From a bacterium SCSIO 12643 (GTDB lineage: Bacteria; Bacteroidota; Bacteroidia; Flavobacteriales_G; Salibacteraceae), in NCBI GenBank assembly GCA_024398135.1, contig CP073750.1, positions 3,348,001 through 3,412,000 of the forward strand: DNA of 64,000 bases, given 5' to 3'. The position numbers were made by a program, and so were the translations under genes. This document shows, in pieces, positions 4,054-8,070 of this stretch (position 1 is the first letter of the stretch; every line of letters starts with the position of its first letter). The notes under the pieces are model-generated. The model made no database searches, had not been told where the DNA came from, and saw only the letters and a list, made by a program, of their open reading frames with translations.

Positions 4054-4872
4054 TTAAAATTTACTGTAAACGTTCAACATCATTTTGTCTCCAGTTCCTT
4101 CATAATAAACATAAAGAAGTCCCATTGACTGATTACATGATACAAACATTTGCGCATTTTTGGCTTCCATTTCGGGCCATCCGGAAAATTCAAATTCCTT
4201 TACATTTTGAGAGGAGTTTGGAAGTTTTTGACAACTCCATGCAGTAAAAATCATTGGGGGAACGAAGTTGCCAATTGTGTTTGGTATGTTTCCCGTGCAT
4301 ACAGTTTTACCTTCTTCAATAATCATGGTAAGATCTTTCTTGAAATGAATTTTATTATCCTTGAAACAGTTGTTAGTAATGGGCCATTGAGAGTGCCACT
4401 CTACAGCGCTCTGTCCATTTTTAGTATATTCTTTTAAAATATTGGTTAGTCTCCAGCTTGTGTTGGCTAATAAACCAATATTATTAGGTTCGATTGTTCG
4501 AGAAAGATCGTCATTGACTGGAAGCGTAATTGTGGGATAATTACCTTTTTGGACTTCTGATAGTTCCCAATTACTAGTGTCGTATTTTTCAATAAAAATA
4601 TAATACTTCCCTTCTTCATAAATTTTAGCACTCTCAAAATGTCCTGCTAAATCTGATTGTAATTGGACAACCATATTATGTCCTGTTAACCAGTCTTCGG
4701 GTGTCTTGAAAATTTTGATCGAAGCATTTACAACAGGTTGATTTTTAGAATTAATTACATCTCCTTTAAACGCATGTCGTTCCGATTCTTTTTTGCATGA
4801 AAACAAAAAAACAATAGAAAAAAACAAGAAATAACTAAAGAAGTTGTAATTAAATAATACAAATTTCTTCAT
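4054..4872 (-). CDS. Lipoprotein with carboxypeptidase-regulatory-like domain (paralog 1)
   Basis: Predicted lipoprotein of 272 residues. A hydrophobic signal peptide ends in L-F-S-C-K-K with lipid-attachment Cys26. Residues about 34-110 look like a carboxypeptidase-regulatory-like beta-sandwich (F-K-G-D-V-I-N...P-V-V-N-A-S-I-K-I-F). The remainder is a beta-rich region with four cysteines (N-N-C, T-V-C, W-S-C, S-C-N-Q-S) shared with its neighbour, likely forming two disulfides in the periplasm or at the surface. It is colinear over its whole length with the gene at 5050-5868, so the pair arose by tandem duplication. Function unknown; no enzyme motif seen. Confidence 0.8.
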   Translation of the reverse strand: MKKFVLFNYNFFSYFLFFSIVFLFSCKKESERHAFKGDVINSKNQPVVNASIKIFKTPEDWLTGHNMVVQLQSDLAGHFESAKIYEEGKYYIFIEKYDTSNWELSEVQKGNYPTITLPVNDDLSRTIEPNNIGLLANTSWRLTNILKEYTKNGQSAVEWHSQWPITNNCFKDNKIHFKKDLTMIIEEGKTVCTGNIPNTIGNFVPPMIFTAWSCQKLPNSSQNVKEFEFSGWPEMEAKNAQMFVSCNQSMGLLYVYYEGTGDKMMLNVYSKF

Positions 4873-5049: not shown

Positions 5050-5868
5050 TTAATCGCGTCTAGAATAAACATCTAGCATCATCTTACCATCGTCACCGCG
5101 ATAGTATACGTATAATTGTCCAACACTTTGATTACAAGCCAAAAACATTTTTCCTCCCTTAGCTTTCATTTCTGGCCAATTATAGTATTCAAACTCTTTT
5201 ACATCTTGAGATGTGTTAGGAAGATTAATGCAGCTATTAGAATTAAAAATTAAAGGGGGAACAAAGTTTGCAAGAATATTTCGTTCTTGTTTTGAACAAA
5301 CGATATCACCTTCAGAAATACGCATACTTAAGTCTTTATTAAAATAAATAGCATTATCTCTTCTACAGTTATTAATACTTGCCCAAATAGATTGCCATTC
5401 AATTGCAGTATGAGGAGGCTTTGTATATTCTCTATGGACGTTAGTTAGTACCCATTTGGTACTTGCCATAAGAGCCATATTATTAAAGTCAATAGTATGA
5501 GACCCTCCACTAGAAACAGGAATGTTTACTTTGGGATATATTCCTTTCTCAACTTGTCTAATTTCCCAGTTACTTGAGTCTAATTTTTCGACAAAAACAT
5601 AATAATCTCCAGACTCGAAAATTTTGTCACTTTCAAAATATCCAGCGAGATCAGACCTCATATTTGCGACTGCATTTAGTCCTGTTAACCAGTCTTCAGG
5701 TGTTTTAAATATTTGAATGGAAGCATTAGCTACAGGTTTATTGTCAGGATTAACTACATAACCGGAATAGCTGTGAAGTTCAGATTCTTTTTTACAAGAA
5801 CTAATAGAGACTGTTACGAAAGCAAGTAGTAACAGAAAAACGTATTTGTGGGGGTGGAGTGTTTTCAT
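5050..5868 (-). CDS. Lipoprotein with carboxypeptidase-regulatory-like domain (paralog 2)
   Basis: Second copy of the tandem lipoprotein pair, also 272 residues. The signal peptide ends in S-I-S-S-C-K-K with lipid-attachment Cys25. It shares with its neighbour the segment K-T-P-E-D-W-L-T-G, the block N-F-V-P-P, the stretch W-P-E-M-x-A-K and all four cysteines of the C-terminal half. Divergence is spread along the length, so both copies appear to be under selection and neither is broken. The 177-bp gap between the copies suggests separate transcription rather than tight coupling. A copy of the intergenic TTTGGTCAAA motif lies about 75-95 nt upstream of this start. Function unknown. Confidence 0.8.
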   Translation of the reverse strand: MKTLHPHKYVFLLLLAFVTVSISSCKKESELHSYSGYVVNPDNKPVANASIQIFKTPEDWLTGLNAVANMRSDLAGYFESDKIFESGDYYVFVEKLDSSNWEIRQVEKGIYPKVNIPVSSGGSHTIDFNNMALMASTKWVLTNVHREYTKPPHTAIEWQSIWASINNCRRDNAIYFNKDLSMRISEGDIVCSKQERNILANFVPPLIFNSNSCINLPNTSQDVKEFEYYNWPEMKAKGGKMFLACNQSVGQLYVYYRGDDGKMMLDVYSRRD

Positions 5869-6230
5869 GCGACAATATTAACATGTGAATGTTGATTGAA
5901 AAAGAATTTCATCACAAAGTTTTTAATATCGCCCCATTTCTTTTAAATATTTGGTCAAATTAGTGGTAAATTGGGGTAAAGGTCTAATTATTAGAATAAT
6001 GTTTTGACTAAAAAAACTCGAAATGAACGTATATTTAAATAAGTTTTTAAACAAAATCGAATCTAAATCTTGATATATTTGAATATATAAATAATATCAA
6101 GTGATAGTTTTTTTTCGAATTTTATAAGACTGATAATCAGAAAAAAGACTAGTTGTCAGGTAGGGATCAGATTTAATTGGGCAACTTTTATCGAAAAAAA
6201 AACATCGTGTACTTAGAATCTGAATGAAGA
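5869..6230. other. 362-bp AT-rich intergenic region between divergent lipoprotein and sigma-factor genes
   Basis: No open frame of note on either strand. It holds one copy of the recurring motif TTTTAAATATTTGGTCAAAT at 5941-5960 and a TATATTTG (-7-like, plus strand) at 6074-6081 with no recognisable -33 element. The rest is A/T-rich sequence without strong hairpins. Confidence 0.5.
5941..5960. repeat. Copy 1 of the intergenic motif TTTAAAnnTTTGGTCAAA
   Basis: TTTTAAATATTTGGTCAAAT. The core TTTGGTCAAA is an inverted repeat of TTTG/CAAA around GT, preceded by the palindrome TTTAAA. Related copies lie at 34126, 34147 and 46716. Confidence 0.35.
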
Positions 6231-6770
6231 ATGACCGAGGGAGAACTGATAGAAGCGTGTATAAATAAGGATAAACGTGCTCAGAAAAGACTGTTCGATC
6301 AATTCTCTCCAAAACTAATGGGAGTCTGTTTGCGTTATGCGCAAGATAGAGATGAGGCTCAGGATATGCTTCAAGATGGTTTTATAAAGATCTTTCAAAA
6401 AATCGAAACTTATAGTGGCAAGGGATCATTTGGAGGGTGGCTGCATCGTGCAATGGTAAATACTTGTCTGGATCATATTCGAAAAAACAGTAAGTTTAGA
6501 TATAAGGTAGAAATTGAAAAGGCAGAATTAGAAACGGACAATGCTGAATCTGCATTATCAGTATTGAGAACCAAGGAGTTGTTACAGCTTATTCAAGAAC
6601 TACCGGAAGGATATAGAATTGTATTTAATATGTTTGCAATTGAAGGTTATGGTCATAAAGAAATTGCTAAAGAGCTGAGTATTACAGAGAATACCTCAAA
6701 ATCTCAGTATAGAAAGGCAAGACTGTACCTTCAAAAAGCAATATCCAAATTGGATAGAGTAGAACAATAA
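6231..6770 (+). CDS. ECF-family RNA polymerase sigma factor
   Basis: Sigma-70 family ECF sigma factor of 179 residues. Region 2 spans about residues 22-87 and includes the core-binding segment D-E-A-Q-D-M-L-Q-D-G-F and the -10 recognition helix with W-L-H-R-A-M-V-N-T-C-L-D. Region 4 spans about 118-170 with the helix-turn-helix Y-G-H-K-E-I-A-K-E-L-S-I. There is no region 3 and no C-terminal extension. It is followed four bases later by a membrane-anchored protein whose N-terminus looks like the partners of Bacteroidota ECF factors, so the two probably form a sigma/anti-sigma-like unit. Which promoters it serves cannot be told from the window. Confidence 0.92.
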   Translation: MTEGELIEACINKDKRAQKRLFDQFSPKLMGVCLRYAQDRDEAQDMLQDGFIKIFQKIETYSGKGSFGGWLHRAMVNTCLDHIRKNSKFRYKVEIEKAELETDNAESALSVLRTKELLQLIQELPEGYRIVFNMFAIEGYGHKEIAKELSITENTSKSQYRKARLYLQKAISKLDRVEQ

Positions 6771-6774
6771 TATT

Positions 6775-7923
6775 GTGGAAGAAAAAGATAACATAAAGGA
6801 GTTATTTCAAGATCGGTTTAAAGATTTTGAAGCGCAAGTAGATCCTGGTGTTTGGAATAATATCCAATCGGAGATGACGAGTTCTCCGGATATTTCGTCT
6901 AGTGCAACATCTGGTTCTATTAGTAAAACAATGATGTGGGTGGCTGCTGTTTCTGTTGCAACGGTTTCAGCTATATCAATTGCTGTGTTTAATACTTCAG
7001 AAGAAGATTTAGTCTCAAATAATTCAGTTCAGGTTGAAGAAACCGTACAATTAGATATTAAAGAGGAAAACGCATCTATAACGTCAAATAAACAGATTGT
7101 AATTGAAGAATCTGCAAGCGTGGATGATATAGCAAAAAATGAAGAAGCGGTGTCTGAGGTAAAGGAAGAAGTGGTTACTGATAAAGTTTCAGGTAATGAA
7201 ACAGGTGAGGTAGTTGTTGCTTCTAAAAATAATGATCAATTGACGGTAACATCAACAGTGAATGTAGCTGAAGTAGTTAAGGATAATAGAAAACAGGAAA
7301 AAACAGTTCAACAAATAAATGAAAATGTATCCACGAATATAGTTTCCAAAGCTCCAAGTTCGATTAATATTGAAAGTCAATCCAGAGTTGTAGCGTCTCC
7401 AATGGGAGGGAATGCACCGTTGGAAGTGAGTTTTAACTCTATATCTTCAGTAGAAAATATTAAATGGATTTTTGACGATGGGGAAGAGAGTATGGATTTA
7501 ACTCCAACTCATGTATACGAGAAACCTGGTGTTTATTTTGTGACAATGATGGCAGAGTTGGAAAATGGAGAAGTGGTTATGGATAAAGCGGTAATTGAGG
7601 TAAAAGAGGCGAATACCAAAAATGACAAAGTGGTTGAAGAGTCTAGCATTTTTGTACCGAATATTTTTACACCTAACGGAGATTCTGAAAATGATAAATT
7701 AGATGTTAAAGTAAAAAATGTAAATACGTTTACTATTTCGATTTATTGTGTGAATGGAAGATTGGTATATACTAGTGATAATCCTGAAGATCAATGGGAT
7801 GGAACAGATATGCGCGGAGAAGACGTAGAGGATGGAGTTTATTACTATCTGATTAACGCGATTGGAGAAAACAATAATGTATACGCTCCGAAGGGCTACG
7901 TTACCGTTAAAAGGTCTTATTAG
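6775..7923 (+). CDS. Membrane-anchored sigma-factor partner with PKD and type B T9SS (CHU_C) domains
   Basis: 382 residues from a GTG start four bases after the sigma gene; no ATG fits. Residues 1-35 (F-x-D-R-F-K-D-F-E-A-x-V-D-P-G-V-W) match the short N-terminal segment common to proteins encoded after ECF factors in this phylum. One transmembrane helix follows (about 52-72), then a low-complexity acidic/Val-rich linker, a PKD-like domain (about 208-276, with W-I-F-D-D-G and H-V-Y), and a CHU_C/type B sorting domain (about 291-382, with V-P-N-I-F-T-P-N-G-D and W-D-G-T). Inference: a cytoplasmic tail binds the sigma factor while the outer part senses the envelope or the type IX system. There is no cleavable signal peptide, which is odd for a T9SS substrate. 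Confidence 0.82.
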   Translation: MEEKDNIKELFQDRFKDFEAQVDPGVWNNIQSEMTSSPDISSSATSGSISKTMMWVAAVSVATVSAISIAVFNTSEEDLVSNNSVQVEETVQLDIKEENASITSNKQIVIEESASVDDIAKNEEAVSEVKEEVVTDKVSGNETGEVVVASKNNDQLTVTSTVNVAEVVKDNRKQEKTVQQINENVSTNIVSKAPSSINIESQSRVVASPMGGNAPLEVSFNSISSVENIKWIFDDGEESMDLTPTHVYEKPGVYFVTMMAELENGEVVMDKAVIEVKEANTKNDKVVEESSIFVPNIFTPNGDSENDKLDVKVKNVNTFTISIYCVNGRLVYTSDNPEDQWDGTDMRGEDVEDGVYYYLINAIGENNNVYAPKGYVTVKRSY

Positions 7924-8036: not shown

Positions 8037-8070
8037 AAAAAAACCTGAAGGAAGCCCTTCAGGTTTTTTC
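8037..8070. terminator. Terminator between convergent genes
   Basis: An 11-bp perfect stem (AAACCTGAAGG / CCTTCAGGTTT) with loop AAGC, flanked by A and T runs on either side, so it can act in both directions. Confidence 0.85.

Follow-up and report, generated by a model that had tools for sequence, protein, structure and literature searches.

The present study identified a two-gene operon that encodes an ECF sigma factor and an anti-sigma-type partner ending in a C-terminal domain (CTD) of the type IX secretion system (T9SS). T9SS CTDs are address labels that mark cargo for this secretion system. The operon lies in the window, by which we mean the whole 64,000-nucleotide stretch of DNA that was analyzed. 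The pair has a Dma-like, envelope-spanning anti-sigma layout, with the T9SS CTD in the place of a beta-barrel. Anti-sigma-type partners with a T9SS CTD are real and conserved, and they are apparently undescribed: no description was found in the open literature searched. A promoter motif located before T9SS cargo genes suggests that the pair probably links T9SS to the transcription of its cargo.

Architecture of the sigma factor and its partner

The sigma gene (6231–6770, plus strand; 179 aa) is followed after a 4-bp gap by the partner gene (6775–7923, plus strand; 382 aa, GTG start). The first-pass annotation had described an ECF sigma factor with a PKD/CHU_C partner four bases on, and open reading frames, Pfam, and NCBIfam confirmed this description. 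An ECF-type autopromoter, GGCAACTTTT-N13-CATC (6180–6206, plus strand), is located 24 nt upstream of the sigma ATG, with a spacing of 17 nt between GCAAC and CATC. The operon of the two genes ends at a bidirectional terminator-like hairpin (8038–8069; RNA fold -19.9 kcal/mol, z -5.5). Two paralogous lipoprotein genes of 272 aa each are present at 4054–4872 and 5050–5868, the second of which is divergent from the sigma gene; their relatives were found near the pair in the same genus only.

The sigma factor matched Sigma70_r2 (4.9e-19) and Sigma70_r4_2 (4e-15) in Pfam. Among its first ten homologs, identity was 69–70% in the same genus and 44–56% elsewhere. The best NCBIfam subfamily was TIGR02985, with a score below its cut-off, and the tree grouped the window sigma with barrel-paired sigmas by kinship.

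The partner begins with a predicted sigma-binding segment (residues 5–38; 6787–6888, plus strand) that was recognized using hhalign and AlphaFold and has the pattern LFxxRFxxFEAxVxPxxWxxI. Hydropathy revealed one transmembrane helix at residues 54–72 (6934–6990, plus strand) after approximately 50 hydrophilic residues, and the position of this helix is conserved among homologs. Since the N terminus is hydrophilic and no Cys is close to the helix, the sequence argues against a signal peptide or lipobox. The helix is followed by a predicted periplasmic, low-complexity linker (residues 73–201; 6991–7377, plus strand; pLDDT <50), a PKD domain (residues 203–277; 7381–7605, plus strand), and the CHU_C/T9SS type B CTD (residues 290–380; 7642–7914, plus strand). 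The protein ends in PKGYVTVKRSY.

Both domains exceeded the curated Pfam cut-offs (PKD_4, 5.7e-9; CHU_C, 9.3e-18 over residues 293–378, 64.6 bits against a cut-off of 27). TIGR04131, the NCBIfam T9SS type B sorting domain, scored 38.8 bits against a cut-off of 35, and with CHU_C and TIGR04131 both above their curated cut-offs, we regard the domain as a type B CTD. In the AlphaFold model, which was built from a 38-row alignment, short N-terminal helices were predicted at residues 7–16 and 24–34 and disorder at 36–201, and the PKD and CHU_C domains were folded, mostly with pLDDT >90. The PKD domain matched solved PKD domains with Z of approximately 10. The structure comparison of CHU_C returned Ig-like matches with Z of 8–10, including a stretch of PorZ (Z 8.3), and no match specific to type B CTDs; according to Paillat et al. 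2025 (PMC12618676), no type B CTD structure has been solved.

Conservation of the pair

We searched for relatives with the partner protein and examined 395 genomes of the class with a partner profile. Full-length partner homologs were present in several families, and a sigma gene of the same type adjoined all 31 of them, directly upstream with a gap of -20 to +48. Therefore, the pairing of sigma and partner is not due to chance. The first-pass annotation had named homologs without the sigma gene or the N-terminal segment as the case that would speak against its reading; we looked for such homologs and none was seen. The anatomy that it had proposed, a sigma partner in the inner membrane with a T9SS CTD outside, was borne out by the sequence predictions and is conserved across many families of Bacteroidota.

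It had also called for a survey of other genomes for sigma partners with CHU_C domains. We surveyed the partner types of 80 sigmas that were taken from GTDB genomes and are closely related to the window sigma, which gave a combined set of 110 distinct sigmas; because this set was drawn by similarity to the query, its proportions are not a census. The commonest partner among these close relatives was the T9SS-CTD type: 39 partners had one PKD and a CTD, 30 a CTD only, and 5 two PKDs and a CTD, while 19 had a barrel-like end and 15 were short. Pfam detected CHU_C in 29/29 of the CTD-only and 38/38 of the one-PKD CTD groups (67/67 combined), as well as in 5/5 of the two-PKD group, with a score below the cut-off in the member shown. 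OMP_b-brl_2 was detected in 16/18 of the barrel types. The linker had a median length of 132 aa in the partner homologs, and the medians of the CTD types were similar, at 114–146 aa. In the two-PKD partners of Bacteroidales (L117, L120, L123, L124, and L134), the CTD is of a divergent type that lacks the FTPN block and retains a KMGxVTL end.

Relationship to barrel-ended anti-sigma factors

In Dma proteins, a sigma-binding segment is combined with one helix, a tether that is disordered, and a barrel at the C terminus (PMC13088901). Three of these features were recovered in the pair: the anti-sigma-type N-terminal segment beside an ECF sigma gene (31/31, hhalign to barrel-type partners), and the single transmembrane helix with a long disordered tether (hydropathy, AlphaFold). 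The C-terminal outer-membrane beta-barrel is missing and is replaced by PKD and CHU_C. Therefore, we describe the partner as Dma-like and do not file it as a Dma protein.

The profiles of the CTD and barrel partners aligned over 34 N-terminal residues only (probability 96.8, E 2.7e-10, hhalign). Parsimony on the sigma tree indicated four changes between CTD and barrel labels. A Bacteroidales barrel clade (100/99) was located among CTD rows, and a Bacteroidales clade of the PKD-PKD-CTD type joined a barrel row (100/96). The shared N terminus and the four changes on the tree suggest a single anti-sigma stem on which two ends directed to the outer membrane have replaced each other. The closest known relatives of the window partner are the barrel-ended Dma anti-sigma factors, which the first-pass annotation had overlooked, and the window partner's own anti-sigma activity is predicted with high confidence.

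The genome that contains the window encodes a further CTD-type pair, located at 2574240, along with two pairs of the barrel type, one of them with a barrel match below the cut-off. The partner of the second CTD-type pair (L175; sigma gene C1:2574240–2574776) carries two PKDs and a CHU_C domain, the C-terminal end of which is weakened. At another locus (L184 and L344; C1:1544521–1546381, minus strand), an ECF sigma gene overlaps that of its partner (446 aa; one helix, linker, FGE-sulfatase domain). In NCBIfam, this domain best matched GldK/PorK of the T9SS ring, at 5.7e-48 and under the cut-off; it is a second T9SS-related domain on a likely anti-sigma factor.

Promoter motif upstream of the sigma operon and T9SS cargo genes

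The motif CAAC-17-C(A/G)TC was found upstream of 34/39 sigmas with PKD+CTD partners, usually 10–30 bp before the start and in 33 cases as GCAAC, against a shuffle expectation of 0.0005 per upstream region. It also preceded 14/15 sigmas with short partners, 12/19 with barrel partners (with small variations), and just 11/30 with CTD-only partners. Based on this conservation, the window sigma operon is predicted to be autoregulated via GCAAC-N17-CATC, a conserved promoter that is newly reported here.

We then considered where else this motif is located. A scan of the whole genome with the strict form GCAACY-N16-CRTC gave 25 hits, in comparison with 15 for the reversed control. After correction of gene starts (that of the gene at 1485627 was corrected), eight of the 25 hits were intergenic with a gene just downstream. 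Besides the sigma operon itself, these genes were four type B cargo genes (1797639, 1802213, 1467107, and 1485627), two genes with type A sorting domains (3071630 and 2433838), and one gene for an uncharacterized, secreted-looking protein. The gene at 1485627 encodes approximately 3700 aa and is followed by a PorP/SprF gene. A scan of the same genome with the exact CATC had returned the sigma operon as the only sound site; the cargo genes appeared once CGTC was allowed. Near C1:1797696–1811304, a tandem array (L230, 4697–18305) contains three near-identical giant T9SS type B genes of approximately 1476 aa and then a fourth related gene, with a sigma-type promoter before two of the first three and none before the third.

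Three other genomes were also scanned. In G001, where 15 of 19 strict hits were examined, the sound sites were the sigma operon, one CHU_C gene, and one gene homologous to the type B gene at 1797639 (39% over 441 aa). In G014, the sigma operon was the only sound site among approximately half of the hits that were examined. A looser motif, (A/G)CAAC-16/17-CGT(C/T), counted together with the strict form, was found upstream of CHU_C genes in 11/22 cases in the own genome, 5/19 in G001, 6/14 in G002, and 3/19 in G014. The background was approximately 0.006 expected per region, and none of 51 window genes had the motif. Since the looser motif was defined after the sites in the own genome had been seen, G001, G002, and G014 are the independent test. 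The motif was just upstream of none of 16 CHU_C genes of more distant families; hence, the link between this promoter and cargo genes is shown for this family only. The first-pass annotation had proposed that the pair couples T9SS status to transcription. Its transcriptional side gained support from the presence of the motif before cargo genes, both in this genome and in its near relatives, whereas the sensing of T9SS is still something that we infer.

The -10 element differs between CATC at the window autopromoter and CGTC at the cargo promoters, and this raises the question of which sigma factor reads the latter. A paralogous ECF sigma, such as that at G000:C1:2574240, may own the cargo promoters, in which case the window pair would mainly control itself. 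Other ECF sigmas of this genome are preceded by CAAC...CGTT, and the 2574240 paralog, itself with a two-PKD CHU_C partner, is the most relevant of these. The GSFxGW loop of this paralog is similar to that of the window sigma, and overlapping ECF promoters have been suggested in F. psychrophilum (PMC9723704). However, two cargo genes share the spacing of 17 and the GGCAACTTTT box exactly with the window autopromoter. Furthermore, CGTC autopromoters exist within the same sigma family (L068, L091, L111, and L116), so CATC and CGTC may both be read. We consider ownership by a paralog, which would be compatible with either of the sensor functions discussed below, to be the less probable arrangement, and we favor, with some reserve, the window sigma as the factor that reads the cargo promoters.

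Proposed mechanism and alternative explanations

We speculate that the N-terminal 38 residues of the partner keep the sigma factor bound on the cytoplasmic side, while the helix anchors the partner in the inner membrane. The linker of approximately 130 aa would allow PKD-CHU_C to reach T9SS parts in the outer membrane, where the CTD may be engaged by a PorP/SprF-like shuttle or the SprA translocon. This engagement would pull on the linker or expose it to a protease, and the freed sigma would transcribe the sigma operon together with T9SS cargo genes. When real cargo occupies T9SS, the CTD would be free and the sigma bound; therefore, cargo synthesis would track secretion capacity. The CTD may thus be a sensor or decoy for T9SS load, as the first-pass annotation had put it. 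The chance that T9SS engagement is the signal for sigma release falls slightly short of even, and we hold the whole model, an autoregulated Dma-like pair with a T9SS CTD end and a sigma that drives cargo, with a similarly tentative degree of confidence.

In one alternative, T9SS or the CTD does no more than deliver PKD/CHU_C to the outer membrane or the cell surface; the signal there would be a glycan, a surface, or damage to the cell envelope, and T9SS status would not be the signal. PKD domains often occur in surface proteins with adhesive roles. Such sensing has been proposed for Dma2, with a surface glycan as the presumed signal (PMC13088901), and envelope stress elicits a response from a related barrel-type pair (PMC9308784). 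The interchange of CTD and barrel ends on the sigma tree is also consistent with surface sensing. However, this function by itself leaves the motif at T9SS cargo genes unexplained, and the 30 CTD-only partners have no recognized domain from the linker to the CTD. We regard a surface ligand sensor as rather unlikely.

Whether the CTD still acts as a T9SS signal bears on a further alternative, in which CHU_C is not recognized by T9SS and, having been co-opted as an ordinary Ig-like binding domain, reports stress in the periplasm or envelope. Type B CTDs require five conserved motifs and a PorP/SprF shuttle, as stated by Paillat et al. 2025 (PMC12618676). By our reading of the motifs, the window CTD appears to carry the regions necessary for type B secretion; it retains recognizable type B blocks, and the last strand is among them. 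Of the PKD+CTD members, 30/39 retain the final G-x-hydrophobic motif, and the window protein is one of them; such retention is not expected under neutral co-option. Among cargo CTDs, the motif is retained in 32/33. In contrast, only 2/20 partners of the Crocinitomicaceae branch retain the motif and 18/20 have lost it, and the CTD of one representative is still predicted to fold (AlphaFold, pLDDT >90). With the motif lost and the fold kept in this branch, the plain sensor-domain function survives as an explanation; sorting function may have disappeared from some lineages while persisting in the window protein. No PorP/SprF gene was found within 30 kb of the pair, which is in line with a periplasmic sensor, and seven are present elsewhere in the genome. 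SprA is encoded in the own genome and present in 385/395 genomes of the class; therefore, the co-occurrence of the pair with T9SS is uninformative. We consider a periplasmic sensor to be improbable for the window protein.

The type B domain of the window partner is intact, as it would be in ordinary T9SS cargo that has an odd N terminus, is cleaved and exported, and shares an operon with a sigma gene incidentally; however, the sigma linkage in 31/31 homologs, the conserved N terminus common to barrel-type anti-sigmas, and the 50 hydrophilic residues before the helix make this very improbable.

Significance and comparison with known systems

The present findings bear on how bacteria with T9SS match the production of very large secreted adhesins and enzymes to their export capacity. 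The control known so far, by PorXY-SigP and in F. psychrophilum SM6, concerns genes for the machinery. With an anti-sigma-type partner that is widespread and carries a T9SS signal, and with a promoter motif pointing toward cargo genes, direct feedback can be put to the test. Moreover, the newly described class of envelope-spanning anti-sigma factors is extended past beta-barrels.

FlgM-FliA is the flagellar export checkpoint, in which FlgM, a soluble protein, leaves the cell through the flagellar T3SS. If the proposed mechanism is correct, the window pair resembles it in that an anti-sigma factor with an export signal ties secretion competence to the transcription of secreted products. The window partner differs from FlgM in being membrane anchored, and its export is hypothetical. 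A FlgM-like T9SS checkpoint, in which the translocon or shuttle pulls on the anti-sigma factor and frees a cargo-transcribing sigma, is conceivable, although we rate it as unlikely on balance. In this view, the exchange of the T9SS end for a barrel in other lineages of the same sigma family would give a modular class of envelope-spanning anti-sigma factors.

PorA-PorXY-SigP of Porphyromonas gingivalis is similar in that an ECF sigma and T9SS-related genes are under the influence of a T9SS CTD protein (PMC7712824). However, PorA is secreted as a free protein and acts ahead of a two-component system, whereas the window CTD is fused to an inner-membrane sigma partner; PorA-PorXY-SigP targets machinery, whereas the candidate targets of the window pair are cargo. 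ECF control in F. psychrophilum also concerns the T9SS machinery (PMC9723704). The type B substrates with PorP/SprF shuttles, such as SprB with SprF (PMC12618676), share with the window partner the CHU_C/TIGR04131 domain and its conserved C-terminal motif. In contrast to these substrates, the window partner is membrane anchored with a predicted cytoplasmic sigma-binding segment, no cleavable signal peptide was seen in it, and no shuttle gene is adjacent.

The strongest resemblance is to Dma1 and Dma2 of Bacteroides thetaiotaomicron (PMC13088901) and the anti-sigma factor of Phocaeicola vulgatus (PMC9308784). They are alike in the adjacent sigma gene, the N-terminal sigma-binding segment, the single helix, the long disordered tether, and the outer-membrane-directed C terminus; the profile match of the N-terminal segment was obtained with the barrel-type partners of the present study, and the B. 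thetaiotaomicron Dma proteins were compared by description. These anti-sigma factors end in a beta-barrel and have vesiculation or PUL genes as their regulon, whereas the window partner ends in PKD and a T9SS type B CTD, and the candidate regulon of its pair is T9SS cargo.
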